A stretch of DNA of 32,047 nucleotides, taken from assembly GCA_028284285.1 (NCBI GenBank), contig JANQSA010000071.1:1-32047 (forward strand), given 5' to 3'. The notes below the pieces were generated by a model that did not search any database, had not been told where the DNA came from, and saw only the letters and a list, made by a program, of their open reading frames with translations. Within the stretch, counting starts at the first letter, position 1; each line of letters opens with the position of its first letter. This document shows, one piece after another, positions 1,570 to 32,034 of this stretch. This stretch comes from Croceivirga sp. (lineage in GTDB: Bacteria > Bacteroidota > Bacteroidia > Flavobacteriales > Flavobacteriaceae). The position numbers and the translations under genes were made by a program.

Positions 1570-1583
1570 GCGGAGGAAGAGGG
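1570..1583. repeat. tRNA-Ser 3'-end direct repeat A (attachment-site-like)
   Basis: The sequence gcggaggaagaggg is identical to the 3' end of the tRNA-Ser gene at 31949-31962. The same 14 bases recur at 5316 and 31785. Copies A and B are further identical through the following 'tctt'. Duplicated tRNA 3' ends are the usual footprint of site-specific integration by tyrosine recombinases; that reading here is inference. Confidence 0.7.
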
Positions 1584-1725
1584 TCTTATTGAAATAGGAT
1601 GAATGGGCTGTTTTTAGGGCTTCTAAGAAGCTCAAAATTTGGGTGACTCCGAAAGGGACACCTATCTAACTATACTTTGACACTTCTGCCTTCTTTGACT
1701 TTCATTTGATAGCAAATCAAAGCAG
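1570..1725. repeat. Left-end repeat family, copy 1 (about 150 bp)
   Basis: Starting with the tRNA-like 14-mer, this segment aligns with 5316-5463. Shared blocks include 'tgtttttagggctt', 'ccgaaagggacacc' and 'acacttctgcctt'. On the minus strand both copies read a short lysine-rich peptide tail (KSKKAEV) before a stop; here the frame has an internal stop. The tail might be the end of a lost gene such as an integrase, but it is too short to identify. Confidence 0.7.
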
Positions 1726-1913
1726 TATACATAAAACTATATCTAGAAGTTCTGTAAATGGTTCCATTTAAGACACTAAGAAATATCAGAATTGTTACAT
1801 TTAATCGAACATATATTTTAATGATTCTTGTTTTGCTTTAGGACAGAATATTGTTCAAAATGCCTTTTTTGAATGGATAAGTTTAAAAGAGTAAATTTTG
1901 TTACTAACCATAA

Positions 1914-2576
1914 TTACGCTAAACCGAAGTAAAAACTCAGTAGGCCAAGCGTGTTAAAAAATCCGTGTACCATGATATTAAACCACAAATCGTATTTACG
2001 CAAGTAGAATATGATTGATAAAAGTGCACCGGTAGTTCCAGCAACAATTTGTCCAGTAATTCCTTGTTGCATATGCATGTAACCAAAAAAGCCACAAAAA
2101 ATGAGAATGTTAACTATGAGACTGATTTTGCCGTCTCCAAAAAATTTGACAAATTGTCTCATAAAATACCCTCGAAAAATAATTTCTTCTCCAAATCCCG
2201 CGGTTATCCATACAATTAATAACCATATAATAGTAGTTGAAAGGTTTCCTCTCAAATGGGTCATACTTGAATAATCAATAGGAATTCCCGTTAACTTCTC
2301 TATTCCAGGAACTATAGCAACTACATACAGAACAAAAAGTCCGAATGCTACTAGTGGGGCGAAGACTAATATGTTTTTCGCAGTAAGTTTATCACGATAA
2401 AATCCAAGTGCTGAAAATGGTTTTCCCTTGTATTCAAAATAATTAGCTAGGACTATGATTATAGAGATAATTATATTTTCAAAAACTGTTCTGGTGATTG
2501 GCCCAAAGTACATGAAAAGAATAATGGCTAAGGTTACCAGTGGAATTACAATTTGACGTAAGGTAGGTTTGGTCAT
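1914..2576 (-). CDS. CPBP-family intramembrane glutamic-type protease
   Basis: The 220-residue protein is almost entirely hydrophobic, with six or more predicted membrane segments. It has the three CPBP (Abi/RCE1-like) motifs: E130-E131-xxx-R135 ('EEIIFRG'), H168 in 'FGYMHMQQ', and H204-xxx-N208 ('HGFFN'). Family members act in the inner membrane as proteases, including eukaryotic prenyl-protein peptidases and bacterial bacteriocin self-immunity proteins. The ATG at 2576 follows an A-rich leader typical of Bacteroidetes. It lies 124 bases downstream of a LytTR regulator in the same direction, so the two may be co-transcribed, and its neighbour could control it. A bacteriocin-immunity role is only a guess; the small secreted protein at 4772 is nearby. 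Confidence 0.88.
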   Translation of the reverse strand: MTKPTLRQIVIPLVTLAIILFMYFGPITRTVFENIIISIIIVLANYFEYKGKPFSALGFYRDKLTAKNILVFAPLVAFGLFVLYVVAIVPGIEKLTGIPIDYSSMTHLRGNLSTTIIWLLIVWITAGFGEEIIFRGYFMRQFVKFFGDGKISLIVNILIFCGFFGYMHMQQGITGQIVAGTTGALLSIIFYLRKYDLWFNIMVHGFFNTLGLLSFYFGLA

Positions 2577-2700
2577 TTTTATTTGTTTTTAGTTCTCCAC
2601 GAATTAATGACCAAAATCTCTTCAAACCCCTTGAAAATTTGATGTTTTTACTGAATGGTATAAAATTCATTACTGAATAGTCGGAAATGTTTGGCCACGT

Positions 2701-3537
2701 TTATTGATACCAGGCCATAAACGCTTTTCGCTTGTATCGACTTATGTTTATTTCAGCAATCACATCATTTTCGACCGGAACTTTTAAACAAATACGCAAC
2801 TTGCCATTTTCAATCTTTTCAATTTGGTCAACCGCATCTTTGTGAATGATGATTTGACGATTGGCCCTAAAAAATAATTGGTCGTTTATTTTTTTTTCGA
2901 GATCATTTAATGTAAAATCAGTGGGAATTGTTGTGCCATCATTTTGAACCGCGTATACAATTTTATTTTCGCTATAAAAGCATGCAATATTTTTGTAGGT
3001 AAGCTTCCTCATTTTCGCACCGCTTTCAACAGCAATTTCCGCATCTTTTATGGATAGCCTATATAAATAATACATGTCTTTCGAGTATAATAAACCTATG
3101 AGAACAAAACTTAATAATAAGGTAATTAGCAAACCAATCAATAAATAATAAAAATCTGTCTGACCGCCTACCACAACGTTTCCAATAATATTTAAAGGGA
3201 TATACATAATTGTAACGTACCCTAGGGTAGAAGTCATAAACCACATGATTTTGGCGATTTCTATCTTTTTGGAAAAATATTTCTTCTTGTAATATTTAAA
3301 ATTGAGATGTGCGATGGTTCCTATGAGAATGCATAAAGTAATGGACGAAAGAAAACCTTCTATGGGAAATCGATACGATTCACCATCTGGAAAACTCTCT
3401 CGCGTTGCCAAATGATTCACAACCAAAGAGAAGATGGTCAATAAAATTGCTTTCTGAAACCAATGCCATGCAGAACTGTTAGCAAATGTGTGCCATACTT
3501 TTTTTACTGGATTCTTAATTGGCTGTCTGGCATTCAT
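2701..3537 (-). CDS. Membrane-anchored LytTR-domain transcriptional regulator
   Basis: This 278-residue protein has an N-terminal half with four hydrophobic segments (about residues 27-45, 63-80, 96-120 and 130-152). A LytTR DNA-binding domain follows from about 175 to 278, recognisable by 'FFRANRQIIIHKDAVDQIEK'. There is no response-regulator receiver domain, so the signal is probably sensed in the membrane. This membrane-LytTR arrangement is common in Bacteroidetes, often next to small membrane proteins that they control. The start ATG (3535-3537) gives the whole first segment. The downstream CPBP protease is the obvious candidate target. Codon and base use are AT-richer than in the PUL genes to the right. 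Confidence 0.85.
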   Translation of the reverse strand: MNARQPIKNPVKKVWHTFANSSAWHWFQKAILLTIFSLVVNHLATRESFPDGESYRFPIEGFLSSITLCILIGTIAHLNFKYYKKKYFSKKIEIAKIMWFMTSTLGYVTIMYIPLNIIGNVVVGGQTDFYYLLIGLLITLLLSFVLIGLLYSKDMYYLYRLSIKDAEIAVESGAKMRKLTYKNIACFYSENKIVYAVQNDGTTIPTDFTLNDLEKKINDQLFFRANRQIIIHKDAVDQIEKIENGKLRICLKVPVENDVIAEINISRYKRKAFMAWYQ

Positions 3538-3902
3538 GAATTAGCAGCTGTTGTTTTGTCAGATTCCAAATTAAAGAATAATTTCCACAGCGGAGTCCTG
3601 TCAAGAATAATGCCCATCATCCATAAAATCCATTCAGATTTCGGTGCAAAATTTGAAAAGGGTAATACTTGATAGGGCAAAAATTGCTATGGACAACATC
3701 CCTCAAGCATTTTAAGAAACAAATGAATCCGGGTTATTGCATTAATTTAGGAGTAGATAGCAATTAAACGTGTCAAACTTCCACAAATCACGGTCTCCAT
3801 TTGACATTCCTTTATTATAACCCAAACAAAATCAGGTATTAAACTGCATTAAAAAATTCGAAATGCAGTGATATAGTTTTGAAAAATATTGTCCCTTTAG
3901 CC
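3538..3902. other. Intergenic stretch without recognised gene
   Basis: This is the divergent flank of the LytTR gene and presumably holds its promoter. I see no convincing coding frame: a short plus-strand frame over 3463-3672 overlaps the LytTR gene and has no recognisable features. The stretch is AT-rich and runs into repeat copy 2. Confidence 0.4.
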
Positions 3903-4213
3903 GGCCGATTTAAAGGACAGAATTGATAAAACTTTTTCTATTTTCTGAAGTGTCTTATTTCTGGTCTCATTTAATAGTTTCGTAAATAGACGTTTTACGG
4001 GATAGAGTGTATATCAAGTTTAGTGAATTCTTTGTTTATAATAGTGAGATAATCGCTTTCGCATTTCGAAAATGGTTTGGTTGAGCAAGAGGACAACAAG
4101 CTAAAGCCGTGTTGTGAAATTATTTTATTGTCAATCAGTCAGTTGTGTGAATTCCAGTAAGCAATCACTAGGACAGTCAGTGCTGGAAAGGCCTATAAAC
4201 AGCGGATTTTACT
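3903..4213. repeat. Right-end repeat family, copy 2 (truncated)
   Basis: Homologous to the first two-thirds of 1150-1583 and of 31345-31798. It contains the identical 39-base core at 4060-4098 and the hairpin ACAACA (4093-4098) / TGTTGT (4110-4115). The match fades after about 4213. The terminator hairpin and the tRNA-like border of the other two copies are absent, so the right third has been lost or replaced. Confidence 0.82.
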
Positions 4214-4352
4214 GTCCTAGTCAACATATTTGGTGATACCGAAATAGAACCAACAGCCTATTTAAAAATGAAGCGAGCGAAATAAGATTTCGCGCTGCAA
4301 GCGTCCCAAAACTTACCCTTAACTAATACTACTGAGCGAGGTGAATTTTCAC

Positions 4353-4428
4353 TTTTCCGTGATTTTTTAGTAAAAAAATCCCCATAAATAGGGGCTTCCC
4401 AGAGTTTTTTAGTAAAAATCATGGAAAA
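4353..4428. repeat. Nested inverted/direct repeat structure
   Basis: Outer arms 4353-4367 and 4414-4428 are a 15-base inverted repeat with one mismatch. Inside are two direct copies of ttttttagtaaaaa (4363-4376 and 4405-4418) and a central hairpin CCCC (4380-4383) / GGGG (4391-4394). The symmetry suggests a small mobile-element end, a regulatory RNA or a decayed miniature element. No coding frame spans it. Confidence 0.55.
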
Positions 4429-4446
4429 ACAGTCAGGCTCTATTAT

Positions 4447-4475
4447 TTTAAATATTTGATTATCAAATATTTAAA
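4447..4475. repeat. 29-bp near-perfect palindrome
   Basis: The arms 4447-4460 and 4462-4475 are perfect 14-base reverse complements around a single base at 4461. It is fully AT-rich apart from one G/C pair. It could be a binding site for a dimeric protein or a recombination target. There is no T run that would make it an obvious terminator. Confidence 0.6.
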
Positions 4476-4480
4476 CAATC

Positions 4481-4502
4481 ATAACGTGGCGTAGCCCGTT
4501 AT
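4481..4502. repeat. Short hairpin, ATAACG-T-GGC / GCC-C-GTTAT
   Basis: The arms pair perfectly except for one T/C mismatch around a GTA loop. It lies only six bases right of the 29-bp palindrome, so the two form a structured block upstream of the small secreted gene. The remaining 4503-4771 has no recognised gene; it includes further short inverted repeats such as GAACAC (4638) / GTGTTC (4665). Confidence 0.5.
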
Positions 4503-4771
4503 CCTCTTGCTTCTCTTCCATTCTTTTGCGGAGCAAAACAATTCTAGAGAACAACGTTTCAAATTTTTGCAGAGTAGAATGCGCCCTATTTCGATTTTAT
4601 TTACCCGCCTTTGGCAGGCTTACGCTTATCTGTCGGAACACTACAAAATCCCGACGGAATCCATGTGTTCTAGCCATTTTCGAAATTTAAAAGAGATGTG
4701 TGCCAGCGAACTATATCTGACCCAAAAATATTTCTATATTGTAGGAAAATTATTAACTAAAAAATCAAACC

Positions 4772-5212
4772 ATGATGAAAAAAATTCTGTTCTTATTTTT
4801 TACGATCACAGCTCTGATAACTTTTCAAAATCAAGCGTATTCTCAAGTATTAGCCGAAGCAGGATCCGAAACTGGTTATGGTGGCGGAGGAAGTGGAGGT
4901 GGAGGTTGTTTAATATGTGAGTTAGAAAAGTATTTTGCTAAATACATGGGTTGGGGCTCGTCAAGTGCCAAAGGTTCCTGGACGAAGGAAAAAGATTCAA
5001 GAACCGTGTATTCAGGTGGTGGTTGGTATACGCGAGCAATCGATGCAAAAGGAAATCAAGTTGCTTTCGGAAGAGATACTCATGGACGACCCACTGTTTC
5101 AAAAGCGTATCTAGACAATTTAAAAGACACAAACCGATCGGAATATTATAGGATAAAGGACGGAATAAAAAAGGAAGAGCAAAAATGTAATTGTATCCTT
5201 ATTTTATATTAA
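4772..5212 (+). CDS. Small secreted glycine-rich protein of unknown function
   Basis: I do not recognise this 146-residue protein. It begins with a clear Sec signal peptide (MMKKILFLFFTITALITFQ, cleavage probably after the SQ/VLA region near residue 25-28). A glycine/serine linker follows (GGGGSGGGG near residues 38-46), then a Cys-x-x-Cys pair (CLIC) and a basic, aromatic-rich domain with 'GWYTRAIDAKGNQVAFGRDTHGRP'. It ends with another Cys-x-Cys. The layout of leader, glycine linker and compact polar domain is compatible with a secreted toxin, peptide or adhesin, but nothing proves any of these. ATG at 4772 or 4775 would both serve. It stands alone between the palindromes and a strong terminator, a cassette-like setting. 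Confidence 0.65.
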   Translation: MMKKILFLFFTITALITFQNQAYSQVLAEAGSETGYGGGGSGGGGCLICELEKYFAKYMGWGSSSAKGSWTKEKDSRTVYSGGGWYTRAIDAKGNQVAFGRDTHGRPTVSKAYLDNLKDTNRSEYYRIKDGIKKEEQKCNCILILY

Positions 5213-5315: not shown

Positions 5316-5463
5316 GCGGAGGAAGAGGGTCTTTTTTAGATTGGAAAAATCCAATGTTTTTAGGGCTTTTTTTAAGGTGAAAATGTAAGTGACACCGAAA
5401 GGGACACCGTATTAACTAAACTTTAACACTTCTGCCTTTTTTGACTTTCCTTTGATAGCGAAC
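5316..5463. repeat. Left-end repeat family, copy 2, with tRNA-Ser 3'-end direct repeat B
   Basis: Its first 14 bases (5316-5329) equal the tRNA-Ser 3' end; the rest aligns with 1584-1725 at about three-quarters identity by eye. The homology ends about 40 bases before the first sulfatase stop codon. It therefore marks the left boundary of the unit that carries the PUL. In the minus frame it reads a lysine-rich tail ending in a stop at 5412-5414; this happens to be in frame with, and after the stop of, the sulfatase. Confidence 0.75.
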
Positions 5464-5504: not shown

Positions 5505-6980
5505 TTACCAAAGCGCATACGGGTGCTCCATCGAAGTATTGGAATCCCTGAACACCCAAGGCTTGAATCCCTCTAAATGGGTTTCCCATTCTTCAAGTGT
5601 ACGGGTGGGATAATCCGCAGACCAGCCTCCTTTTCTGAACGCTTCGCTTACCCCTTGGTCATTTATGGCTGACCGCCATTTCTGTAATTCATTGAACAAT
5701 ACATTCTTTATGGAATCATAGGCTTGGTTTTTTGCAAGGTTGTTGACCTCCCACGGGTCTGCGGTCAAATCATAGAGTTCAAGTTCAGGTTTGGTAGCGC
5801 CCATAAACTGGCTTTGATCCCTATTGAGCTCGCCATTCAGGTATTTGACATTCAATTCTGCCAAAACAGGATAGTAAGCCTCCTTATATTTATTGTACTG
5901 GCAATAGGGTCGCTCTGACATTAAATTTTGGATGAGCTTAAACTTTTTTGAACGAACGGTGCGCATGGCATCGTAAGTACTGTCCATCTTGTCACGGGCG
6001 GCAAAGATGTACTGCCGCTCTTTGATCGCATTGTTGAAAAGGTTTCTCCCATGAAGGGGTAGCGAGCTTTTGGCCCCCGACACCTCCAAAATGGTCTTGG
6101 TAATGTCCAAGGTGGTGATAAGGTCCTCCTTCACTTGGGCCGGTTTAATTTTTTGTGGCCATCGAACGATAAGGGGTACATGAATGCCACCATCGTACAA
6201 AAACTGTTTTCCCCTAGGCATGCAGCGACCGTTGTCGCCCATAATGAACACCAAGGTATTGTCATACAAATTTTCCGCTTTCAATCTATTAAGAACGGTC
6301 TTAACCTGGCGATCAACTATTTGCATGGCCTCCAGCCCGTTTGCCCAATCACGTTTGGCCAAATCGCTCTGTGGATAATATGGTGGCAGCCTTACCTCAT
6401 CGATTTCTATGGGATTGATGGAATCGCGCGACCATGGGCGGTGGGTCTTTTGAAAGGTAATCTGCGCAAAAAAGGGCTGGTCTTTGCCCCTTTGGTTCCA
6501 ATCGGTCCCCTCGAACAAATCTCCTTCATATAAAAAATTGAGGTCTGTTTTTTTATCTACCATCAAACAGGTAAAATAGCCCTTTTCGGACAAAAGCTGG
6601 GTAATGGGCCTGATGCCATTGGGCAGTGGTCGCTTGGCAAAACCAAACTTTTCATCGGTTCTGTGTTGTTCGGCTCCGATAAAGTTCTGGTGAAAACCGG
6701 TCATCATGGCCGATCTTGAGGGCGAGCATACCGGAGCGGTGGTAAAACAATGGGTGTAACGAATACCCTCGCTGGCGACTTGGTCGATATGTGGCGTTTC
6801 GATACCGGGTTCGCCATAGCAGGAAAGTTGTGGCCCCCAGTCTTCAAGCATAATCCAAACAATGTTGGGCGGGGACACTTGAGTGGATTGCTTCTTTGTT
6901 TCCGTACAGGAAAGCATAAAAATGCACGAAAGAATACAGGCTGTACTTATGTAAAAGGCGGTTGGTCTTTTTGTTACCAT
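5505..6980 (-). CDS. Lipoprotein sulfatase (S1 family, formylglycine type) no. 1
   Basis: Hydrolyses sulfate esters from sugars, probably attached to the periplasmic or outer membrane. The 491-residue protein has a lipoprotein signal with lipobox FMLSC (Cys25). The family motif C-x-P-x-R appears as CSPSR at 85-89; Cys85 must be converted to formylglycine by a maturation enzyme that is not in this window. A second conserved block, 'GDNGRCMPRGK', and C-terminal 'LYDLTADPWEVNNLA' are typical of family S1. The early 'MLEDWGPQLSCYG' and the 'KTHRPWSRD' segment recall sulfamidase-like S1 subfamilies, but I cannot assign one. It lies 147 bases downstream of the sigma factor on the same strand and could be read from the same promoter. 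It is the only catalytic gene on the minus side of the PUL. Confidence 0.93.
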   Translation of the reverse strand: MVTKRPTAFYISTACILSCIFMLSCTETKKQSTQVSPPNIVWIMLEDWGPQLSCYGEPGIETPHIDQVASEGIRYTHCFTTAPVCSPSRSAMMTGFHQNFIGAEQHRTDEKFGFAKRPLPNGIRPITQLLSEKGYFTCLMVDKKTDLNFLYEGDLFEGTDWNQRGKDQPFFAQITFQKTHRPWSRDSINPIEIDEVRLPPYYPQSDLAKRDWANGLEAMQIVDRQVKTVLNRLKAENLYDNTLVFIMGDNGRCMPRGKQFLYDGGIHVPLIVRWPQKIKPAQVKEDLITTLDITKTILEVSGAKSSLPLHGRNLFNNAIKERQYIFAARDKMDSTYDAMRTVRSKKFKLIQNLMSERPYCQYNKYKEAYYPVLAELNVKYLNGELNRDQSQFMGATKPELELYDLTADPWEVNNLAKNQAYDSIKNVLFNELQKWRSAINDQGVSEAFRKGGWSADYPTRTLEEWETHLEGFKPWVFRDSNTSMEHPYALW

Positions 6981-7127
6981 AAAAAATTTGTTTTCAATCT
7001 TGTAATGACTTTGAGCGCAATCTGCCCATGCCCATAAAATGATATTGAATATTCCTTACTATGACACCACTAATTAGGGCACCCCCTACATTTTTATCAT
7101 GAAAAGATTAGTAGAGACCCAAGTAAC

Positions 7128-7709
7128 TTAACGTTCGGAGAATAACTTTTGAACGAGGACCATAAAAATATGGGGAGTCTCTTCAAAAACTTCTTTTAGG
7201 CGTTTGATGGCACGGCTTATGTGCTTCTCGACCGCTTTTTCAGAAATATCGAGCTGAGTGGCAATTTCACGGTACTTATAGCCCTGCTTTTTACTCAATA
7301 AGAACACTCTCTTACATTTTTTTGGCAATTGTTCAATGGCGGCATCCAACAATCGTATCTTTTTTTCCAAAAGCTCTCTGTCCATTTCCACCATTTGGTT
7401 GAGCACTTGCGCCTTAAACTCCAATAGGGCTTTTTCCTTTCGCTTCTTTCGATGGTGTTCTTTGGAAAAGTCGTTGAAAACGCTCCGGTAGAGGTAACTT
7501 TTCAACGAAGTGGTGATGACAAGGTTCTTTCTGTTCGACCAAATCTTAACGAAGACGTTCTGCACAATATCTTCGGCCGGGGCAAGGTCTTTGGTAAGGG
7601 TATGGCAATACTGCACCAAGCTTTCATAGTAAACCTCATAGAGCGCTGCATAGGCATTTTCTTCGCCATTTCGCAATTCTTCTACCGATATTTTGCCCTT
7701 TTCCAACAT
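7128..7709 (-). CDS. ECF RNA polymerase sigma factor (FecI-like)
   Basis: Directs RNA polymerase to PUL promoters after release from the neighbouring FecR anti-sigma factor. At 193 residues it has the usual ECF length. Region 2 lies at about 12-80 (with 'DIVQNVFVKIW'), and region 4 at about 125-175 ('LPKKCKRVFLLSK' then the helix-turn-helix 'YREIATQLDISEKAVEKHISRA'). These sequences match the Bacteroidetes family of sigma factors paired with FecR and SusC. It is divergent from fecR, with about 119 bases between the start codons, so both promoters lie there. A divergent arrangement is less common than the usual co-directional sigma-fecR-susC order. The frame starts at the ATG ending at 7709. 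Confidence 0.95.
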   Translation of the reverse strand: MLEKGKISVEELRNGEENAYAALYEVYYESLVQYCHTLTKDLAPAEDIVQNVFVKIWSNRKNLVITTSLKSYLYRSVFNDFSKEHHRKKRKEKALLEFKAQVLNQMVEMDRELLEKKIRLLDAAIEQLPKKCKRVFLLSKKQGYKYREIATQLDISEKAVEKHISRAIKRLKEVFEETPHIFMVLVQKLFSER

Positions 7710-7726
7710 TTTTCCCCTTTCATTTG

Positions 7727-7743
7727 CGATATTGAAAATATCG
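7727..7743. promoter_or_regulatory. Perfect 7-bp inverted repeat in the sigma/fecR divergent region
   Basis: CGATATT (7727-7733) and AATATCG (7737-7743) flank GAA. It sits 18 bases upstream of the sigma factor start codon, within its leader or promoter. It could be an operator or a hairpin in the 5' leader. No experimental promoter consensus is clear enough to call. Confidence 0.4.
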
Positions 7744-7828
7744 AAATCTAAACAAAGATTAAAAAAAGTTTAAAACAATGTAGGGTTTGGGTAAACTTCG
7801 GGGTCATATAAATATAACCCAAGGTCAA

Positions 7829-8992
7829 ATGACATCCAACAAATTAGAAATCATCATCCAAAAGTACAATAGGGGTACACTGACTACGGATGAATTGGAT
7901 ATGCTCTTCGAGGCCCTTTCAGAAGACTGGTCAAGAAAACAGATTGAAAAATCAATTGAAATAGAGTACCTGCTTTCGTTAAAGTACCAAAAGGTAAATG
8001 CCGAAGAAGCCTACGAAGCATTTCTTTCCAAAACACGGCAAGACCGTAACCGAAACATCGTAAAAAAGAAGAAAAAGTACGTTGCCTTTTACCGGTATGC
8101 GGCCGTTTTCGTGGGACTTTTTGCCCTTTCGTACTATTTTTTGACACGTGAGTCGGTAGAACCACCCTTATTGAAAATCGAGGATAAGAACATTACGTTG
8201 CAATTGGGCGATGGCAAGATAAGAGTTGTTGATGCCGAAGGCAATGCCCAGGTACTAGATAAGAATGGGAAAGCCATTGCCACACAGACCGGTGATAAAA
8301 TCACATACACAAGCAAAGAAGATGACAATGAGCTTGTCTACAACGAACTGAACATTCCCTACGGGAAAAAATTCCAACTTGAACTGTCTGACGGTACCGT
8401 TGTACACTTGAATTCCGGTTCTTCCCTGAGATACCCCGTCAATTTCTTGGAAGGAAAAAACAGGAAGGTCTTTCTGAACGGCGAGGCCTATTTTAAGGTT
8501 ACCGAAGATGAGGCTCACCCATTTATCATTAACACGCAACAAGTGAATGTAAGGGTTTTGGGCACCGAGTTCAACGTCTCTTCATACAATGATGACGAAC
8601 ACGTAAATACCGTGTTGGTATCGGGCAGTGTGGAACTCTATGAAGACAGTGAAGCCAATATTGACAATGCATTACAACTGGCCCCCACCCAAAAAGGCAC
8701 TTGGAACAAAGCTGAAAAGACTTTTGGGGTCGAACAAGTCGATACGAACCTCTACACCGCATGGGTCGATGGTAGGCTTGTCTTTAGGGATACCCCCTTC
8801 AAGACCATTCGAAAAAAATTGGAAAGAAACTACAATGTTACCATCAACAACAACAATAAGCTTTTGGATGAGAATACCTTCAATGCCGTTTTTGACATTG
8901 AGACCATAGAAGAGGTGCTAGAGGTTTTTGACCGAAACTTTGGCATCAAGTACAGAATAGAAGACAATCAAATCATCATATATCAACAATAA
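7829..8992 (+). CDS. FecR-family anti-sigma factor
   Basis: Inner-membrane protein that holds the ECF sigma factor and releases it when SusC signals substrate. The chosen ATG at 7829 gives 387 residues; an in-frame TTG at 7787 would add 14 residues and is less likely. The cytoplasmic sigma-binding part covers residues 1-86, one membrane segment lies at about 87-105 (AVFVGLFALSYYFL), and the FecR domain is at about 175-270 ('PYGKKFQLELSDGTVVHLNS', 'VLGTEFNVSSY'). A DUF4974/STN-like C-terminal domain lies at about 316-385, where the SusC STN domain is expected to bind. All domains are intact. It is followed by SusC after 120 bases, and divergent from its sigma factor. Confidence 0.95.
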   Translation: MTSNKLEIIIQKYNRGTLTTDELDMLFEALSEDWSRKQIEKSIEIEYLLSLKYQKVNAEEAYEAFLSKTRQDRNRNIVKKKKKYVAFYRYAAVFVGLFALSYYFLTRESVEPPLLKIEDKNITLQLGDGKIRVVDAEGNAQVLDKNGKAIATQTGDKITYTSKEDDNELVYNELNIPYGKKFQLELSDGTVVHLNSGSSLRYPVNFLEGKNRKVFLNGEAYFKVTEDEAHPFIINTQQVNVRVLGTEFNVSSYNDDEHVNTVLVSGSVELYEDSEANIDNALQLAPTQKGTWNKAEKTFGVEQVDTNLYTAWVDGRLVFRDTPFKTIRKKLERNYNVTINNNNKLLDENTFNAVFDIETIEEVLEVFDRNFGIKYRIEDNQIIIYQQ

Positions 8993-9040
8993 AAGTTTGC
9001 CTATGAATGACCGATAATTGAGAGCCAAAACACCAAAAAA

Positions 9041-9073
9041 CGGGAAGTGCTCGCAACACCTCCCGTCAGGTGT
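9041..9073 (+). promoter_or_regulatory. Two mutually exclusive leader hairpins upstream of susC
   Basis: CGGGA (9041-9045) pairs with TCCCG (9061-9065), extended by GTG/CAC. The 3' arm also takes part in an alternative hairpin, ACACCT (9056-9061) with AGGTGT (9068-9073). The two cannot form together, as in attenuators or leader switches. Neither is followed by a good T run, so this is not a simple terminator. It may set the level of susCD against fecR. Confidence 0.45.
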
Positions 9074-9112
9074 GATTAAAATTAATTAACCACTTGAAAA
9101 CTTTACAAAATT

Positions 9113-12580: not shown

Positions 12581-12599
12581 ACCAGTAAATACAAAGAAA

Positions 12600-20396: not shown

Positions 20397-21158
20397 ATGG
20401 AAGAAAAAACATTTTCATTACAAAACAAACATGCACTCATCACTGGTGGGGGAACAGGTATCGGTTTTGGTATCGCCGAGGCTTTTGTAAGGGCAGGAGC
20501 AAAAGTGGTCATTACCGGCAGGCGTGAAGAAGTATTGAAATCCGCCACGGCGACTCTCGGTAACCATTCTCAATATGTCGTGAATGATATCAGTGAATTG
20601 GAAACACTCCCAGGGCTTATCCAGTACATTGAAAATAGCATGGGGCCACTGGATGTTTTGGTGAACAATGCGGGCATCCACCACAAGGCGTGGGCTGAAG
20701 ATACCACCGACGCCGCTTTTGAGCGTATTCTGCAGACCAACCTAATGAGCGTGTTCTCAATCACCCGTGAGTGCATCAAATACATGAAACCACGCCAAGA
20801 AGGGGTCATACTCATGATAAGTTCAATGGCCGCCCTGTTCGGTCTTGACAGGGTGATAGCCTACAGTGCTTCGAAGACCGCACTGACAGGTTTGGTGAAT
20901 TCCCTGACCACCGAATATGCAAAACACGGTATAAGAACCAATGCCATTGCTCCAGGATGGATTGCTTCGGAAATGTTTCACAAAGCCGTGGAAAAGGACT
21001 TGAATCGAAAACAACAAATTGAGAATCGAATTGCCATGGATCATTTTGGCGAACCAAAGGACATTGGCAATGCGGCCGTTTTTCTGGCCTCAGATGCAGC
21101 CCGATACATTTCGGGAGTTGTACTGCCAGTGGATGGGGGTGCCACCGTGAATTTTTAA
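20397..21158 (+). CDS. Classical short-chain dehydrogenase/reductase (sugar or keto-acid oxidoreductase)
   Basis: NAD(P)-dependent cytoplasmic oxidoreductase of 253 residues. The nucleotide-binding TGGGTGIG lies at 16-23, NNAG at 90-93, and the catalytic N115, S142/S143, Y156-xxx-K160 are intact. The end 'LASDAARYISGVVLPVDGG' is standard. Length and sequence style match gluconate 5-dehydrogenase and 2-keto-3-deoxygluconate 5-dehydrogenase (KduD) relatives, which fits the neighbouring sugar-acid dehydratase. It could oxidise a sugar to its lactone, supplying the lactonase-like protein, or act on the keto acid after dehydration. The 2-base gap to the dehydratase suggests translational coupling. 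Confidence 0.9.
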   Translation: MEEKTFSLQNKHALITGGGTGIGFGIAEAFVRAGAKVVITGRREEVLKSATATLGNHSQYVVNDISELETLPGLIQYIENSMGPLDVLVNNAGIHHKAWAEDTTDAAFERILQTNLMSVFSITRECIKYMKPRQEGVILMISSMAALFGLDRVIAYSASKTALTGLVNSLTTEYAKHGIRTNAIAPGWIASEMFHKAVEKDLNRKQQIENRIAMDHFGEPKDIGNAAVFLASDAARYISGVVLPVDGGATVNF

Positions 21159-21175
21159 ACTTAAAGGACAAAGGA

Positions 21176-22735: not shown

Positions 22736-22739
22736 ATAC

Positions 22740-24221: not shown

Positions 24222-24222
24222 A

Positions 24223-25566: not shown

Positions 25567-25632
25567 AACCCCATTTTTTCATAAAACCTACAATGGCACA
25601 TCTTTTATGGTTTTATCTGCAAAACATCCATT

Positions 25633-27234
25633 ATGGACTTTTTGACCGAACATTGGATTGAGTTTGGCTTTGTCATTGTTTATCTCGTTATCTTGGCGCA
25701 CCATGCTTGGGCGAACAAGGGAACGCGGTTTGATGCCGCCAGCAATCCCTATTGGATTATCGCCATCTCGTTTTTTGCAACCTTTGTCAGCACCAATACC
25801 TTTATAGGCCATGCGGGCAAAAGTTGGGATGCGGGTCTTTTATGGTACCTAAAACTGGCCGCCTACATCTTGTTCACTTGCCTCAGTTGGTTTGTGATTG
25901 CCCCAAAGTTCTTTGCCATGGGCAAGAAATACGGCTCTCGAACCATCGCCGATTTTTTGGGGTATCATTATCGTTCTACGTTGGTAAGAAGGGTAGCCGC
26001 CATAATCATTGTATTGGCGACCTCTCTGTATTTGGTGGCCGTGTATAAAGCGGCATCGCTTGGCCTTCAAGAATTTTTCAATATTGATTATGTGACCTCA
26101 TTGGTCATCATCTTCGTCATCGTCACGATTTACACCAGTACCGGTGGTTTCAGTGCCGTGGTAAAGACCGATGCTTGGCAGGGCGTTTTTTTGGCCATAG
26201 GTGCCGTTGCCGTTTTTACGGCCTTAACGGTTGAAGGCGGTGGACTACCGAACATCATTGGCAAGCTGCGCATTGCAAATCCTGAAATGGTTTCATGGAA
26301 AGGGGGCATACCCATTGCCGAAATCATCGGCCTTTCCTTGGCCGGGGGCATCAAGATGATGGTTGACCCCAGGCAGGTTTCCCGTTTTTACGGCTTGGAC
26401 GACCAAAAACACATTTTAAAAGCGGGATTGATAGCCACTTCGCTCTTCATCATGATTTACGTGCTCATGTTGCCCATAGGCGCATTTGCCCGAACGGTAA
26501 TCCCTGCCGAAGCCATTACCGATTCTGACCAAGTAATGCCCTATCTGCTGGGCGAAGCAAAGATTTTGGGCATCTTTGGGTCGTTGTTGCTTTTGGTGTT
26601 GATTTCAGCCGCCATGTCAACACTTGATTCCGCCCTACTTGTGGCGGCATCGGCAGCAGACCAAGATTTGTTCATGAAAGGGGAAAGCTTAAAAACAAAG
26701 GCCCTTAAAAAATGGACCCAATCAAAACGGAAACCCCACATTCCTGATACCGTGGTGAAAAAAGTAGCCGAATGCCTTGATGCGAAGCACAAAAATCTTT
26801 TGGAAATTGAAAACCGGTTGAAGAAAAGGTTGACCGATGAAGAATGGAACCATCACAAAGATTCGCTCATGGCTGTCGTGAACAGTTCGGCAACGGCCAG
26901 GCAACGGCCATGGTTGACTGTTATTTCGCTGTTGAGCATGCTGTTGGCCCTGAATCCCATTGCGGGCATTGTGGAGATGACGGCTTTTGCAGGCTCCATT
27001 TATGCCGCCTGCTTTTTGCCCACATTGGTCATTGGTATTTTTTGGCGTGGCTCCACTTTTGCAACAATGGCAAGCCTTGTTCTGGGGGCAATAAGCGTAT
27101 TGTTCTGGTTTTTTCTAAAAAAGCAGGGATTGGTGGAAATACATGAGATATATGTGGGAGCCGTGGTCGGAATCGCCATTTACATCCTATTTTCACTCCA
27201 ATCAAAATTGAAAAATTCAAATGGGGTTTACTAG
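25633..27234 (+). CDS. Sodium:solute symporter (SSS family)
   Basis: Inner-membrane transporter that uses the sodium gradient to import a sugar, sugar acid or similar solute. The 533-residue protein has about 13 hydrophobic segments and the family core 'IYTSTGGFSAVVKTDAWQG' and 'SAAMSTLDSALLVAASAADQDLF'. A hydrophilic cytoplasmic insert of about 90 residues follows that motif, rich in Lys/Glu and predicted helical, before the last membrane segments resume at 'RQRPWLTVISLL'. Such an insert is longer than in many SSS members and may regulate or bind a partner. It begins 66 bases after the hydrolase. It overlaps the next gene by 14 bases, so translation is likely coupled to it. Confidence 0.92.
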   Translation: MDFLTEHWIEFGFVIVYLVILAHHAWANKGTRFDAASNPYWIIAISFFATFVSTNTFIGHAGKSWDAGLLWYLKLAAYILFTCLSWFVIAPKFFAMGKKYGSRTIADFLGYHYRSTLVRRVAAIIIVLATSLYLVAVYKAASLGLQEFFNIDYVTSLVIIFVIVTIYTSTGGFSAVVKTDAWQGVFLAIGAVAVFTALTVEGGGLPNIIGKLRIANPEMVSWKGGIPIAEIIGLSLAGGIKMMVDPRQVSRFYGLDDQKHILKAGLIATSLFIMIYVLMLPIGAFARTVIPAEAITDSDQVMPYLLGEAKILGIFGSLLLLVLISAAMSTLDSALLVAASAADQDLFMKGESLKTKALKKWTQSKRKPHIPDTVVKKVAECLDAKHKNLLEIENRLKKRLTDEEWNHHKDSLMAVVNSSATARQRPWLTVISLLSMLLALNPIAGIVEMTAFAGSIYAACFLPTLVIGIFWRGSTFATMASLVLGAISVLFWFFLKKQGLVEIHEIYVGAVVGIAIYILFSLQSKLKNSNGVY

Positions 27235-28252
27235 AAGAAATTTTATAAAGACGACAACGGCAGCATCTTTCTCCTTGGTGATGATGCCCAATACCCTAGT
27301 TTCCAAAAAAGCCAAAAAGAGATATATCATGACCGTAAACGGAAAGATGGAGCCTTCAAAAATGGGACTGTCCCTGACCCATGAACATATTTTGGTCGAT
27401 ATGGAAAAAGGGGCCACCGGAGAAATATGGTGGGAAAGGGAAACAGTAAAAAAAGTGGTGCTTCCTTATCTAAAGGAGATAAAATCGCATGGATGTAAGA
27501 CTTTCTTTGATTTTACACCCAGCTATATCGGAAAGGACGTTAGGTTACTAAAGGAATTGGCTGATGAAACCGGACTGCATATCATCACCAACACAGGTTA
27601 TTACGGAGCCAATAATAACAGACACATTCCTGAACATGTGTACAGGGAATCCCCAGTAGAACTGGCGGGACGTTATATCAGGGATTTCAAAAAAGGCATG
27701 CAGGGCACCAAGATAAAACCGGGTTTTATCAAGACAGCGGTAAACAGGGGGCCGTTGTCCAATCTTCATCAAAAACTGATTAAGGCGGCAGCTTTGGCCC
27801 ACCTCAAGACTGGCTTGACCATTGCCTCACATACCGGGCCGGCAGAACCTGCATTGGAACAAATAGCATTGTTAAAGGAAAATGGGGTTAGTCCCACAGC
27901 TTTCATTTGGACCCATGCGCAGGCAGAAAAGAATCTTTCGATGCACCTAAAAGCTGCAAAAGAGGGGGCTTGGATCAGCTTGGACGGTATCCGTGAAAAA
28001 AATAGTAACCGCTATGTTTCGATGATACGATTTCTAAAAAAGCAAGGTTACTTGAACAAGATATTGTTATCGCATGATGCAGGATGGTACACTCCGGGCG
28101 AGAAAAACGGTGGAAGATTCAGGGGCTATACTGCCCTATTTACCCACTTGCTTCCAGAGTTGAGAAAAAACGGGTTTATCCAAAAAGATATCGACACCAT
28201 GCTGATTCAAAATCCTATGGACGCCTTTGTGATAAAAACTAGAATGATTTGA
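27221..28252 (+). CDS. Phosphotriesterase-family amidohydrolase, Tat-exported; probable lactonase
   Basis: Binuclear metallohydrolase of 343 residues with all PTE ligands: His54 and His56 (LTHEHILVD), the Lys171 expected to be carboxylated (FIKTAVN), His204 (ASHTG), His232 (WTHAQ) and Asp286 (SHDAGW). Natural activities in this family are mostly lactone hydrolysis, so a sugar lactone is a sensible substrate next to a dehydrogenase and a sugar-acid dehydratase. The N-terminus MGFTRRNFIKTTTAASFSL has a twin-arginine signal, so it probably folds in the cytoplasm and acts in the periplasm. That would place lactone opening outside the inner membrane, before uptake. It overlaps the symporter by 14 bases. 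It is the last gene before a 240-base gap. Confidence 0.88.
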   Translation: MGFTRRNFIKTTTAASFSLVMMPNTLVSKKAKKRYIMTVNGKMEPSKMGLSLTHEHILVDMEKGATGEIWWERETVKKVVLPYLKEIKSHGCKTFFDFTPSYIGKDVRLLKELADETGLHIITNTGYYGANNNRHIPEHVYRESPVELAGRYIRDFKKGMQGTKIKPGFIKTAVNRGPLSNLHQKLIKAAALAHLKTGLTIASHTGPAEPALEQIALLKENGVSPTAFIWTHAQAEKNLSMHLKAAKEGAWISLDGIREKNSNRYVSMIRFLKKQGYLNKILLSHDAGWYTPGEKNGGRFRGYTALFTHLLPELRKNGFIQKDIDTMLIQNPMDAFVIKTRMI

Positions 28253-28494
28253 CCAAAATGGCAATTTTTAATAAACGAAGTTAAGAGCATGCCTTGTAAG
28301 GTATATCCATTGTATTTGTGCTTAAGATTCGATAATCCAAGGGGGAATTGTAAAAGGATTGGTACAGCATATACTGTGATTTATAGGGTTAGATACATCA
28401 CTATTGAGGATGGTCCATGTCAAGGAATAAGTATTTCGGGGAGTGGAAGAAAGCAATTTGGATTTTTAAAGTTACACAGAACATGTGGGTAAAA
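28253..28494 (+). promoter_or_regulatory. Gap before the TRAP genes; probable separate promoter region
   Basis: After thirteen kilobases of tight spacing, about 240 bases carry no convincing gene. The TRAP genes may have their own promoter here. No terminator hairpin is clear after the PTE-like gene, so readthrough is also possible. Short frames here have no family features. Confidence 0.35.
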
Positions 28495-29469
28495 ATGAGG
28501 GTTTTCAGCATCTTTTTCATTGGGATTGCCTTTTTGTTGGGATGTAAGAATTCCGAAGGGGCCAAAACCATCCGGTTGGCACACACACTTGATGTGAACC
28601 ATTCGGTACATCAGGCAATGGTAAAAATGGGGGAGGACTTACGTGAGCTTTCCGATGATAGGCTGCACATTGAGATTTATGCCAACCAACAATTGGGAAC
28701 GGAACGTGAATGCCTGGAACTCTTACAGATCGGAAGTTTGGACATGGCCAAGGTTTCCGTAGGCATTTTGGAAAACTTTGCGCCCAAGATGAAAGTATTG
28801 GGGCTGCCATTTCTGTTTAGGAGCAAGGAGCATTCATTTAAGGTAATGGATGGCCCCATAGGACAGCAATTATTGGACAGTGGCCAAAAATATTGGCTAA
28901 AAGGTCTGGGATTCTACGACGCTGGCAGCCGTAGTTTTTATTCCAAAGAGCGACCGATCGAACACCCAGATGATTTGGAGGGATTAAAGATTCGTGTGAT
29001 GGAAAGCAAGACCGCCATGGATATGGTACGCAGTATGGGTGGTTCGCCAACGCCCATCTCTTGGGGCGAGTTGTATACCTCATTGCAACAGGGGGTGGTT
29101 GATGGAGCAGAGAACAATCCACCCAGTTTTTACCTTTCACGGCATTACGAAGTCTGTAAATATTACTCATTGAGTGAGCACACTTTTTTGCCCGATGTAC
29201 TGATTGCTGGAACCCATTTTTGGAATAGGCTTTCAGAACAGGAACGGGTTTGGTTGAAGGAAGCAGTAAAAAATTCAATGGTCTATCAACGAAAATTATG
29301 GACAGAGGCAGAGACCAAGGCCTTAAAAGAAGTACAGAAGGCAGGAGTAGCGGTTATTAGGCCCAACAAGCAACCATTTGAGCAAAGGGTGGAAAAGATT
29401 TATCGGCAATACGAGGATGAAGCCGAGTTATACGCAATAATCCAAGAAATAAAGGCAATGGAACAATGA
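28495..29469 (+). CDS. dctP: TRAP transporter substrate-binding protein (DctP family), lipoprotein
   Basis: Binds an organic acid outside the inner membrane for the DctQ/DctM permease. ATG 28495 gives 324 residues with a lipoprotein signal (MRVFSIFFIGIAFLLGC, Cys17); the longer frame from 28417 has no signal and is less likely. Family blocks are 'HSVHQAMVKMGEDLRELSDDRL', 'LKIRVMESK' with the conserved Arg that binds the substrate carboxylate, and 'VVDGAENNPPSF'. A lipid anchor is not the rule for TRAP binding proteins of Gram-negative bacteria, which are usually soluble. Context suggests uronates, aldonates or lactone-derived acids made by this PUL. The gene overlaps dctQ by four bases (ATGA). 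Confidence 0.93.
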   Translation: MRVFSIFFIGIAFLLGCKNSEGAKTIRLAHTLDVNHSVHQAMVKMGEDLRELSDDRLHIEIYANQQLGTERECLELLQIGSLDMAKVSVGILENFAPKMKVLGLPFLFRSKEHSFKVMDGPIGQQLLDSGQKYWLKGLGFYDAGSRSFYSKERPIEHPDDLEGLKIRVMESKTAMDMVRSMGGSPTPISWGELYTSLQQGVVDGAENNPPSFYLSRHYEVCKYYSLSEHTFLPDVLIAGTHFWNRLSEQERVWLKEAVKNSMVYQRKLWTEAETKALKEVQKAGVAVIRPNKQPFEQRVEKIYRQYEDEAELYAIIQEIKAMEQ

Positions 29470-29927
29470 GGCATTTTAGACAGGGACTGGATAAATTCTT
29501 GGGCCGTTCACTGGCTTTAATCATGGCCATTATGGCGCTCAATGTGCTTTGGCAGGTGTTTAGCCGATATGCATTGGGTGAACCAAGTTCTTTCACGGAT
29601 GAACTGGCCCGTTTCCTGATGATTTGGATAGGTGTTTTGGGTGCAGCATATGTTGAGGGTCAGCATGGTCACGTCGCCATAGATGTACTGGTGCGTCGTG
29701 CGGACAAACACAACCAAAAAAGGCTTAAGCAACTCGTGCGATTGGTAATCGTCCTGTTCTGCCTTTTTGCGATGGTGATGGGAGGTCTCAGGTTGGTTTA
29801 TATCACTTATTTGCTCGAACAGCATTCGCCCGCATTGGGATTGCCTTTGGCGGTGGTGTATATGGTCATACCCATTAGTGGACTGCTTATCATTTATTAT
29901 AAGATTTCCGATATGTTAAGCAATTAA
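29466..29927 (+). CDS. dctQ: TRAP transporter small permease (DctQ family)
   Basis: Four-helix inner-membrane subunit, 153 residues, that joins DctM to form the TRAP transporter. The family pattern 'WQVFSRYALGEPSSFTDELARFL' is present in the first half, and four hydrophobic segments span the rest. It starts inside the last codon of dctP and ends 4 bases before dctM, so the three are one transcription unit. No fusion with DctM, unlike some TRAP systems. Confidence 0.92.
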   Translation: MRHFRQGLDKFLGRSLALIMAIMALNVLWQVFSRYALGEPSSFTDELARFLMIWIGVLGAAYVEGQHGHVAIDVLVRRADKHNQKRLKQLVRLVIVLFCLFAMVMGGLRLVYITYLLEQHSPALGLPLAVVYMVIPISGLLIIYYKISDMLSN

Positions 29928-29931
29928 GCCT

Positions 29932-31230
29932 ATGGAATATGTACCAATACTTGTTTTGATCATCAGTTTTGTTGGATTGCTTGCTATCGGTACTCCTGTG
30001 GCCTGGAGTATAGCCATCTCATCGTTATTGACCATACTGGTGAGCATTCCCTTCCTACCGGCTTTCACTACTATTTCGCAGCGAATGGCAACAGGGTTGG
30101 ACAGTTTTGCGCTTCTTGCCATTCCGTTTTTCATTCTATCTGGGGAGTTGATGAACAATGGGGGCATTGCGCACCGCCTGATTGCCTTTGCCAAGACCTT
30201 GGTAGGGGCTTTGCCTGGTGGTTTGGCCCTAATCAATATCATATCGGCCATGCTGATGGGGGCCATTGCAGGTTCAGCGATGGCCTCGGCCTCTGCAATG
30301 GGTAGCATTCTTGCTCCAGAAATGGAAAGGGAGGGGTACGACAAGGAATTTGGTGCTGCTGTCAACATCACTTCGGCCACAACGGGTTTGGTTATCCCAC
30401 CCAGCAATATACTGATTGTGTATTCACTTGCGAGTGGTGGTGCGTCGGTTGCCGCGCTTTTTTTGGCAGGGTATTTACCTGGTATTCTGACAGGGCTCTT
30501 CCTGATAATCGTAGCATCGTTTTGGGCGAAGAAAAAGGCTTACCCATTAGGTAAAAAAAGCTCTTTGAAAGAAGTGCTCAAGACCTTTATCGATGCAATA
30601 CCTTCACTGTTTTTACTGGTATTGGTGATTGGAGGCATTATTGTTGGAATATTTACCGCTACTGAAGCTTCGGCCATTGCAGTATTGTATAGTTTAATAT
30701 GTGGATTCCTTTATAGGGAAATCAGCTTACAAAAGCTTCCAAAAGTTTTTCGGGATTCCGCTGTTACCACCGCCATAGTCATGCTTTTGATCGGGGCATC
30801 GATGGCAATGTCATGGGTGCTATCGTATGAACATATTCCACAGGAAATTAGCACAGGTTTGTTAAGTCTTACCAATAACAAGATTATAATCTTGTTGCTC
30901 ATCAATATCATTCTCTTAATGGTGGGAATTTTTATGGATATGACACCTGCAGTACTCATTTTCACTCCTATTTTTTTGCCAGTGGTAATTGAATTTGGCA
31001 TCGACCCTATCCACTTTGGAATTATGATGATATTGAACTTGTGTATTGGGTTGTGTACACCCCCAGTGGGATCTGTACTCTTCGTAGGTGTGGGTATTGC
31101 CAAAACATCCATCGAAAAAGTAGTTAAACCTTTATTGCCCCTGTTTGTTGCTATGATTGTGGCCTTGTTCATGATAACATATATACCCCAGTTGACATTA
31201 TGGTTGCCAAGATTGTTCAATCTACAATAG
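29932..31230 (+). CDS. dctM: TRAP transporter large permease (DctM family)
   Basis: Ion-coupled transport subunit of 432 residues, about 11-12 hydrophobic segments. Family blocks include 'GTPVAWSIAISSLLTIL', 'IPFFILSGELMNNGGIA', 'TTGLVIPPSNILIVYS' and 'NLCIGLCTPPVGSVLFVG'. Uses a sodium gradient to carry the substrate handed over by DctP. Its length is typical for an unfused DctM. It is the last gene of the PUL; the right-end repeat begins about 115 bases after its stop. Confidence 0.94.
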   Translation: MEYVPILVLIISFVGLLAIGTPVAWSIAISSLLTILVSIPFLPAFTTISQRMATGLDSFALLAIPFFILSGELMNNGGIAHRLIAFAKTLVGALPGGLALINIISAMLMGAIAGSAMASASAMGSILAPEMEREGYDKEFGAAVNITSATTGLVIPPSNILIVYSLASGGASVAALFLAGYLPGILTGLFLIIVASFWAKKKAYPLGKKSSLKEVLKTFIDAIPSLFLLVLVIGGIIVGIFTATEASAIAVLYSLICGFLYREISLQKLPKVFRDSAVTTAIVMLLIGASMAMSWVLSYEHIPQEISTGLLSLTNNKIIILLLINIILLMVGIFMDMTPAVLIFTPIFLPVVIEFGIDPIHFGIMMILNLCIGLCTPPVGSVLFVGVGIAKTSIEKVVKPLLPLFVAMIVALFMITYIPQLTLWLPRLFNLQ

Positions 31231-31335: not shown

Positions 31336-31353
31336 AACAGCCACGGCTGTTTT
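31336..31353 (+). terminator. Weak terminator-like hairpin after dctM
   Basis: AACAGCC (31336-31342) pairs with GGCTGTT (31345-31351), followed by TT and then A. The loop is only two bases in the fully paired form, so a four-base loop is more likely. It is weak, but lies about 105 bases after dctM and at the border of the repeat. Confidence 0.4.
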
Positions 31354-31798
31354 AGGGCACAGAACTGACAAGACTTTTTTCCATTTGCTAGATTGTCCCA
31401 TTTCTGGTCTCATTTAATAGTTTCGTAAATAGACCTTTTATGGGATAGAATGCATATAATGTCCAATAAGTTCTTTGTTTGTATTAGCAGGTAATTGCTT
31501 CCGCATTTCGAAAATGGTTTGGTTGAGCAAGAGGACAACACGCTAAAGAGATGTTGTAATTTTAAATACCTGTAATTGAGGTTATTGTGATTTACAAAGG
31601 AAGAGGCACTAAGACAATTTTATTATAGAGGCCTTGGGGAACCCCATAAACACTGGATTCCATTATCATAACACTGGGCAGTGGATGAAAATTAAGGTTC
31701 TATGATTATTTTAAGTCGAAGACTGTAGAAGTCATTCAAAAAACAAAAGCCCGATTTTCTGCTGGAAATCGAGCTCTGCTTTAAGCGGAGGAAGAGGG
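31345..31798. repeat. Right-end repeat family, copy 3
   Basis: Full-length homologue of 1150-1583. The 39-base core is at 31502-31540 and the hairpin stem at 31535-31540 / 31552-31557. The terminator-like hairpin is repeated at 31746-31777. The right border is again the tRNA-Ser 3' end. It marks the right edge of the unit carrying the PUL. No gene is seen in 31231-31949. Confidence 0.85.
31746..31777 (-). terminator. Terminator-like hairpin inside repeat copy 3
   Basis: Same position and nearly the same sequence as 1531-1562, with the T-rich run on the minus strand. It would end a minus-strand transcript coming from a tRNA gene at 31785. Confidence 0.55.
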
Positions 31799-31802
31799 AT
31801 TC
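31785..31802. repeat. tRNA-Ser 3'-end direct repeat C
   Basis: The 18 bases gcggaggaagagggattc equal 31949-31966 in the tRNA gene. Sequence after them (31803 on) is unrelated to the tRNA body, so this is a partial copy of its 3' end, not a second tRNA. Confidence 0.75.
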
Positions 31803-31918
31803 ACAGCGCTTCGCTCGTGCGTCCCAAAAGGGGATCCAATACAAAGAAAAGCTACCAGAGGCAGCAATTTTTATTTCCTTCGCGAATCTTAAGCAAGCTT
31901 GTTCCGCTTTGGAAATGA

Positions 31919-31944
31919 AAAAGCTTCACATTTGTGAAGCTTTT
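31919..31944 (-). terminator. Rho-independent terminator of tRNA-Ser
   Basis: Arms 31919-31930 and 31933-31944 are perfect 12-base reverse complements. They lie directly after the tRNA 3' end on the minus strand, with a T-rich end. It differs from the hairpin found in the repeats. The 31803-31918 stretch between repeat C and this hairpin shows no gene. Confidence 0.8.
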
Positions 31945-31949
31945 CTTTG

Positions 31950-32034
31950 CGGAGGAAGAGGGATTCGAACCCCCGGAGGTGTGACCCTCAACAGTTTTCA
32001 AGACTGCCGCATTCGACCACTCTGCCATTCCTCC
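31950..32034 (-). tRNA. tRNA-Ser(UGA)
   Basis: An 85-base cloverleaf on the minus strand. The acceptor stem GGAGGAA pairs with TTCCTCC, followed by discriminator G; CCA is not encoded. The D arm has GCAGAGTGGTCGAATGC, and the anticodon loop CTTGAAA lies between GCAGT and ACTGT, giving anticodon TGA (serine codons UCN). The long variable arm, typical of serine tRNAs, precedes the T arm GGGGGTTCGAATCCCTC. Partial copies of its 3' end lie at 1570, 5316 and 31785, suggesting it is an integration hotspot. Confidence 0.97.

Follow-up and report, generated by a model that had tools for sequence, protein, structure and literature searches.

How does a complete polysaccharide utilization locus (PUL) come to lie between copies of the 3' end of a tRNA gene? 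The question is posed by a contig of Croceivirga sp. (Flavobacteriaceae; GenBank assembly GCA_028284285.1, contig JANQSA010000071.1), whose entire 32,047 bp were analysed and are called the window here; the genome, of 4.82 Mb, is designated G000. Our analysis points to an accretion array that abuts a tRNA-Ser(UGA) gene at its 3' end. In it, the PUL is probably the cargo of a unit without an integrase; the PUL has spread via this hotspot, and one lineage or more has replaced or lost the ends. Four copies of the tRNA end, element ends shared between units and a tRNA-Ser-specific integrase clade in relatives together lead to this reading. The units are named Z (1..1569), A (1570-5316) and B, the PUL unit (5316-31798), and their left and right ends are abbreviated LE and RE.

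Cores, shared ends and integrases at the tRNA-Ser gene

The 14-mer GCGGAGGAAGAGGG occurs on the + strand at 1570, 5316, 31785 and 31949, the last copy being the 3' end of a tRNA-Ser(UGA) gene called by ARAGORN and backed by Rfam RF00005. These coordinates reproduce those of the first-pass annotation, a reading of the sequence alone in which the copies were taken to mark layered integration units with the PUL as cargo of one of them. A genome-wide search for more copies returned exactly these four, all on the window contig, and 100 shuffles of the window gave 0 matches. Identity with the tRNA extends over 18 bases at 31785 and over 14 bases at 1570 and 5316; both borders of unit B (5316 and 31785) thereby carry the direct repeat of a tRNA 3' end by which tRNA-associated islands are recognized. 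Among 11 genomes of the genus (G000 and ten relatives, G004-G008 among them), the 14-mer is held by eight and present in multiple copies in five, and all four relatives with several copies have the extra ones on the tRNA-Ser contig; of the four copies counted in G007, one comes from a second, overlapping contig that carries this tRNA again. Two or more copies of GCGGAGRAAGAGGG were counted by eye in approximately 63 of 397 genomes of the family.

The cores are embedded in longer repeats. Copies of RE align at 1164-1583 versus 31359-31798 (81% identity) and at 1150-1444 versus 3903-4208 (84%; the copy at 3903-4208 is without the last part), and copies of LE align at 1566-1716 versus 5312-5462 (82%). 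Three RE and two LE copies were the only ones in the own genome, the next matches having E-values of at least 0.08 or consisting of the bare core. Units A and B thus begin alike, and units Z and B finish alike. The first-pass annotation was correct on the core repeats but had not noticed these flanking repeats of about 150-440 bp, which, together with the shuffles and the confinement of all four genomic copies to this array, refute an origin of the 14-mer by chance or as a purine-rich composition repeat; we have no point in its favour, and its probability is close to nil. Each LE contains the motif GTGACACCGAAAGGGACACC, two 8-base repeats spaced 12 bases that form a 20-bp tandem, exactly (20/20) in unit B and with one mismatch (19/20) in unit A. 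A search at up to 3 mismatches, where none is expected, gave no further pair anywhere in the window, the RE of unit B included. LE may represent a left attachment arm with candidate arm-type sites to which an integrase would bind.

An integrase that could account for such ends is present in relatives. In three of the ten (G006, G007 and G008), a gene for a 412-420 aa integrase lies 225-250 bp from tRNA-Ser. Searching 299 family genomes with the G007 integrase gave 89 matches at E <=1e-90, and 30 loci (L103-L132) were fetched, 23 at 56-81% identity and seven at 51-55%; two rows at >=56% were left out of this set (G084:C11, 58%; G234:C84, 66%, partial). A tRNA-Ser gene adjoins 22 of the 23 fetched loci at >=56% identity (21 UGA, 1 GGA), the remaining one lying beside tmRNA, and none of the seven at 51-55%, which have other tRNAs (four), tmRNA (one) or neither (two) alongside. 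Because of this division, the clade is, judged by its genomic neighbours, one that targets tRNA-Ser. The link to LE is seen in another genus, in which a 15.4-kb unit of G392 is ordered core, LE, cargo, integrase and core at tRNA-Ser. Its LE is 80% identical to that of unit B over 115 aligned positions, its integrase is 82% identical to that of G007 and contains an arm DNA-binding domain, and close versions of the arm pair occur on both sides, in LE (1 mismatch) and between integrase and core (3 mismatches). More diverged versions are found in the right arms of G007 and G136. The G008 integrase (67%) is paired with a different motif, and no LE match was found there. We also observed an 83% relative of the integrase on a contig from a viral collection (L183), with the core alongside and a 411-aa ORF beyond it; the 12.4 kb covered of this contig contain no tRNA, and apart from the core there is no match to LE.

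The window itself appears to have lost this gene. Positions 3903-4602 are 97% identical to G006 and 3903-4665 are 93% identical to G007, in both cases to the sequence directly before the integrase gene, which is direct evidence that unit A descends from an integrase-bearing element. The window contains 61 mechanical open reading frames (ORFs) of >=80 aa, and a Pfam scan of 23 distinct ORFs detected no recombinase, relaxase or phage family; a PF00589 search of the own genome likewise gave no match on the window contig. With no integrase, relaxase or type IV secretion gene of its own among the ORFs scanned, the window does not qualify as an integrative and conjugative element (ICE) or an integrative and mobilizable element; an integrase is present in the related units of G006, G007, G008 and G392. 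Unit B, with attachment (att) sites on both sides and no integrase or transfer genes among the scanned ORFs, has the composition of a cis-mobilizable element (CIME). Since the contig starts inside unit Z, this leftmost unit is incomplete. A far-left block common to G004, G005 and G007 was considered as the native left flank and rejected, its homologue in the own genome (G000) lying mid-contig on contig C82.

Horizontal spread of the PUL

The cargo of unit B comprises genes for a sulfatase, an ECF sigma factor, FecR, SusC, SusD, GH2, a second sulfatase, an enolase-like protein, an SDR and GH28, followed by a further sulfatase, a beta-lactamase-family hydrolase, an SSF symporter, a phosphotriesterase-family protein and TRAP DctP/Q/M. 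A SusC/SusD pair, carbohydrate enzymes and a regulator are thus combined, as is characteristic of a PUL. The 26.5-kb unit had been described as purely PUL-type, and this is borne out by its Pfam-matched ORFs, all of which are of PUL, sulfatase, transporter or sugar-enzyme type, with no recombinase among them.

In G007, which belongs to another species, the PUL lies in the corresponding tRNA-Ser island with 94.2% identity over 25.8 kb (window 5460-31236), whereas G000 and G007 agree at only 73-78% in the chromosomal flank on the far side of the tRNA. A 6.5-kb PUL probe was matched at full length only in G000 and G007 (97%) and in none of the other nine genus genomes; G005 and G007 also gave partial matches at 66-67%. 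The flanks of G004 and G005 are 95-96% identical to that of G007, yet neither genome has a full-length PUL match. Based upon the excess of PUL identity over flank identity and the patchy distribution of the probe, horizontal movement of the PUL between distant species of the genus, via the tRNA-Ser hotspot, is strongly supported by these comparisons. The GH28 gene has a 98% match on JANQKR010000043.1, from a metagenome-assembled genome (MAG) of Croceivirga. More distant GH28 relatives (69-79%) were seen in rearranged loci (L098-L101) of Aquimarina, Fulvivirga, Flammeovirgaceae MAG BBD 1991-12 and an Opitutaceae MAG. Coordinates of all features are collected in Table 1.

Table 1. Positions of the array features in the window, with the evidence for each
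Feature	Position	Strand	Evidence or remarks
Unit Z, cut by contig end	1..1569	+	MacB/FtsX-type permease, frame open to contig start, ends 1138, then RE
RE of unit Z	1150..1569	+	Inverted repeat 1531-1562 just before core; self-alignment
Core (tRNA 3' end copy), boundary unit Z / unit A	1570..1583	+	Genome-wide 14-mer search, shuffle test
LE of unit A	1584..1766	+	Arm-type pair 1643-1662; 1568-1763 90% identical to a G004 LE
Unit A cargo: CAAX (Rce1-like) protease and LytTR regulator	1914..3537	-	Pfam
Unit A RE module and tail preceding integrase in G006/G007	3903..4665	+	Alignment; no integrase after it
Unit A 146-aa Gly-rich ORF, in integrase position of relatives	4772..5212	+	No Pfam match
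Core, boundary unit A / PUL unit B	5316..5329	+	Genome-wide 14-mer search, shuffle test
LE of PUL unit B	5330..5462	+	Arm-type pair 5389-5408
PUL cargo of unit B	5505..31230		Pfam; 5460-31236 94.2% identical to G007
RE of unit B	31345..31784	+	Hairpin-like terminus as in unit Z
RE1-52, sharply bounded 52-bp conserved dyad in RE of B	31395..31446	+	Family search, alignment
Core, right edge of PUL unit B	31785..31798	+	14-mer search, shuffle test; tRNA match 18 bases
Putative tRNA-proximal remnant of ~150 bp, hairpin adjoining tRNA	31799..31948		Related to flanks in G004, G007, G008
tRNA-Ser(UGA), intact attachment gene (attB side)	31949..32034	-	ARAGORN; Rfam RF00005

A conserved 52-bp dyad in the right end

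The RE of unit B was used as the query in a search of the 397 family genomes, with two candidates scored per genome, and 18 of these, the own included, have a match. In 14 of the 17 other genomes (13 genera), the match covers a 52-bp segment, GTCCCATTTCTGGTCTCTTTTAATAGTTTCGTTAATTGACCTTTTATGGGAC, termed RE1-52 or RE1, whose dyad ends read GTCCCAT...ATGGGAC; the hairpin is matched in G215 and G404, and another part of RE in G135. No RE match was found in the units of G392 and G358. We aligned 23 copies of RE1-52, seven from the own genus and 16 from others. For some copies, a tRNA or integrase sequence was noticed at a distance of no more than 1.5 kb. A tRNA is nearby at 5 of 16 RE1 loci versus 1 of 24 control loci (Fisher one-sided p 0.03; controls from one genome), and 17 integrase queries detected integrase-like sequence at 3 of 17 RE-matching loci (one of which, L167, is a hairpin match without RE1) versus 0 of 24 controls. 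The association of RE1 with tRNAs and integrase-like sequence is suggestive only.

Several identities for RE1 were tried and rejected. As an RNA or single-strand hairpin, it would be expected to show compensatory change, but while 83.8% of the cells pair in the 23 sequences, 0 pairs change on both sides, so that the conserved dyad alone is established. At Rfam gathering scores the tRNA is the sole match in the window, and weak E-value matches in 31230-32047, the tRNA excepted, lie outside RE1 and below the cut-offs. RE1 was rejected as an insertion-sequence end, since no transposase is found among ten neighbouring ORFs in other genera, and as a companion of the integrase clade, since the 52-bp block occurs in 0 of the 30 loci L103-L132 (~4.2 kb each, E <=0.01), of which L117 and L132 have other short RE pieces only. 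The RE1 pattern has no exact match in the viral contigs searched, nor has RE any match in the plasmids or phages searched.

Competing histories and known systems

The anatomy of the locus suggests that islands with a tRNA-Ser-specific tyrosine integrase would have inserted repeatedly at the tRNA 3' end, each insertion leaving a copy of the tRNA end plus the element's own ends. The integrase gene is missing from unit A, as alignment with integrase-bearing relatives shows, and from unit B. The latter is core-flanked and keeps an LE with the sequence of arm-type sites that this type of integrase would presumably bind; its movement would depend on an integrase supplied in trans or by an adjacent element. 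That the PUL crossed between distant species of the genus through the hotspot is strongly supported, and one lineage or more has had its ends replaced or has lost them.

Several observations weigh against this account. In G007, the LE is only 58% identical (85 of 147 positions), the left core is decayed, and RE is missing to the right of the PUL. RE is also unmatched in the integrase-bearing unit of G392, and the 52-bp block is absent from all 30 integrase loci. The RE of unit B does not have the arm pair that G392 has on that side, so unit B may be an incomplete or partial substrate. Finally, no close integrase was found in the own assembly, in which the best match is 44% identical and has one internal stop. 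The G007 PUL nonetheless starts at the same nucleotide behind its diverged LE, and the same PUL boundaries are kept. In 500-base steps, PUL identity to G007 is 92-99%, save for 75-90% over 9501-14000, mainly SusC/SusD; it seems that this uptake pair was either exchanged or is diversifying separately from the remaining PUL. Since the identities of the ends and of SusC/SusD differ from that of the PUL body, cargo, ends and SusC/SusD pair have different histories. Cargo and ends have separate histories, and modular exchange within the island fits these comparisons best. Layered site-specific integration at tRNA-Ser, as first proposed, is thus backed by the cores, the shared ends and the integrase clade, and the proposal that the PUL moved as unit cargo holds in so far as an att-bounded cargo has spread horizontally; that it moved as the present 5316-31798 unit is not supported, given the ends in G007. 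A PUL in relatives without the flanking 14-mers had been named as grounds for abandoning the proposal, and G007, with its decayed left core and missing RE, comes part of the way to that situation.

The same junctions would also be explained if homologous or illegitimate recombination between LE and RE had brought the PUL into an array that already existed; the cores would then be those of an older element, and site-specific recombination would not have moved the PUL. We regard this as possible, though clearly the less likely course: homology to G007 sets in at 5460, right at the end of LE, and breaks off at 31236, short of RE, and the separate SusC/SusD break (75-90% versus 93-99%) indicates that recombination inside the island probably occurs, but a diverged LE of its own adjoins the G007 PUL at the same border nucleotide, so the joint between LE and PUL seems ancestral, and both PUL copies occupy the same tRNA-Ser hotspot despite chromosomal flanks that are 73-78% identical. 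A more speculative extension, which we consider doubtful, is that Z and B belong to a non-autonomous, integrase-less cargo family (LE arm pair plus RE with RE1-52) that swaps cargo, including whole PULs, via resident tRNA-island integrases, RE1-52 serving as a second recombinase, helper or transfer site that enables capture in trans; the result of 0 of 30 integrase loci with the 52-bp block weighs against it as well. It is unlikely that the array moves as one composite island by its outermost att sites, with the PUL unit not separately mobile. Tandem islands may move together by accretion (PMC3146451), and no integrase was found in unit A or unit B; against this, the islands of G004, G005 and G007, whose flanks are 95-96% identical, have only separate blocks in common, and the PUL region is 94% identical versus 86% for the 98-bp tRNA-proximal stretch, core included.

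In a very improbable alternative, the 14-mers were left by tandem duplication of the tRNA-Ser gene. We fetched 20 stretches from 12 multi-core family genomes, partly selected for close spacing. Core doublets with a spacing of 128-183 bp, terminating in a tRNA-Ser gene, were found in four other genera (L139, L140, L141 and L144, picked for that core spacing), matching the 0.16-kb unit; in G326 two whole tRNA-Ser genes lie 229 bp apart, and in G377 a near-identical hairpin precedes both cores. Other doublets were variants, L137 being broken by N, L142 having no tRNA and L146 having two whole tRNA-Ser genes. The copies at 1570 and 5316, 26-30 kb away, lead into integrase-type LE and not into tRNA-like sequence, which speaks against duplication as their origin. 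For 31785-31948, the comparison suggests what looks like an old tRNA-end remnant with a hairpin, not a layer like A or B, so that of the three units originally delimited the 3.7-kb and 26.5-kb units stand and the 0.16-kb unit probably does not. We further observed that the tRNA end of the window shares 96 bp with an end of contig C78, that G008 shows the same (C3/C30) and that C13 and C32 of G007 overlap by 99 bp. Assembly breaks at tRNA-Ser in three genomes hint that the sequenced populations contain alternative junctions. The contig break was nevertheless rejected as proof of such heterogeneity: it is suggestive of a branching assembly graph, but no second branch turned up.

CIMEs and accreted islands are att-flanked units without an integrase that lie beside related units. 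Unit B is likewise att-flanked, integrase-less and adjacent to related units; unlike the integrase-bearing G392 element, its RE has no arm pair. An account of Dehalococcoides, which names CIMEs and accreted islands, describes vcr-GIs as tandem islands downstream of ssrA whose borders are marked by direct repeats of the ssrA 3' end, with 15 islands without an integration module termed possible cis-mobilizable elements and a catabolic trait among the cargo (PMC3146451). The two systems have in common several islands in a row at one RNA gene, 3'-end repeats, integrase-less members and catabolic cargo, but vcr-GIs use a serine recombinase and ssrA, while the array here is of the tyrosine recombinase type, at tRNA-Ser, with PUL cargo and different ends. 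In gut Bacteroidetes, 47 SusC/SusD loci are on mobile elements (PMC6907783); these resemble unit B in having a SusCD polysaccharide locus as mobile cargo and differ, as elements of gut bacteria, from a Croceivirga-type tRNA-Ser array whose scanned ORFs include no conjugation gene. Tycheposons (PMC10872708) are also tRNA-anchored, tyrosine-recombinase-associated islands with metabolic cargo; unlike in these, no recombinase was found on the window contig. We did not find this tRNA-Ser/PUL hotspot in titles or the beginnings of abstracts on PUL, tRNA and integrase in Flavobacteria, PULs on ICEs, CIMEs and Croceivirga, a sample that leaves out most subscription papers.

The array is ordinary in kind and instructive in detail. 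In our judgement, a landing-site view of the transfer of a whole PUL between marine Bacteroidota is seldom available. The hotspot, the integrase clade, the candidate arm sites and the transferred PUL can all be named here, which makes the route testable. Matching att repeats around a PUL are no proof of joint movement, as the cargo was kept while the ends changed, and RE1-52 stands out as a conserved sequence that occurs both inside and outside these islands.

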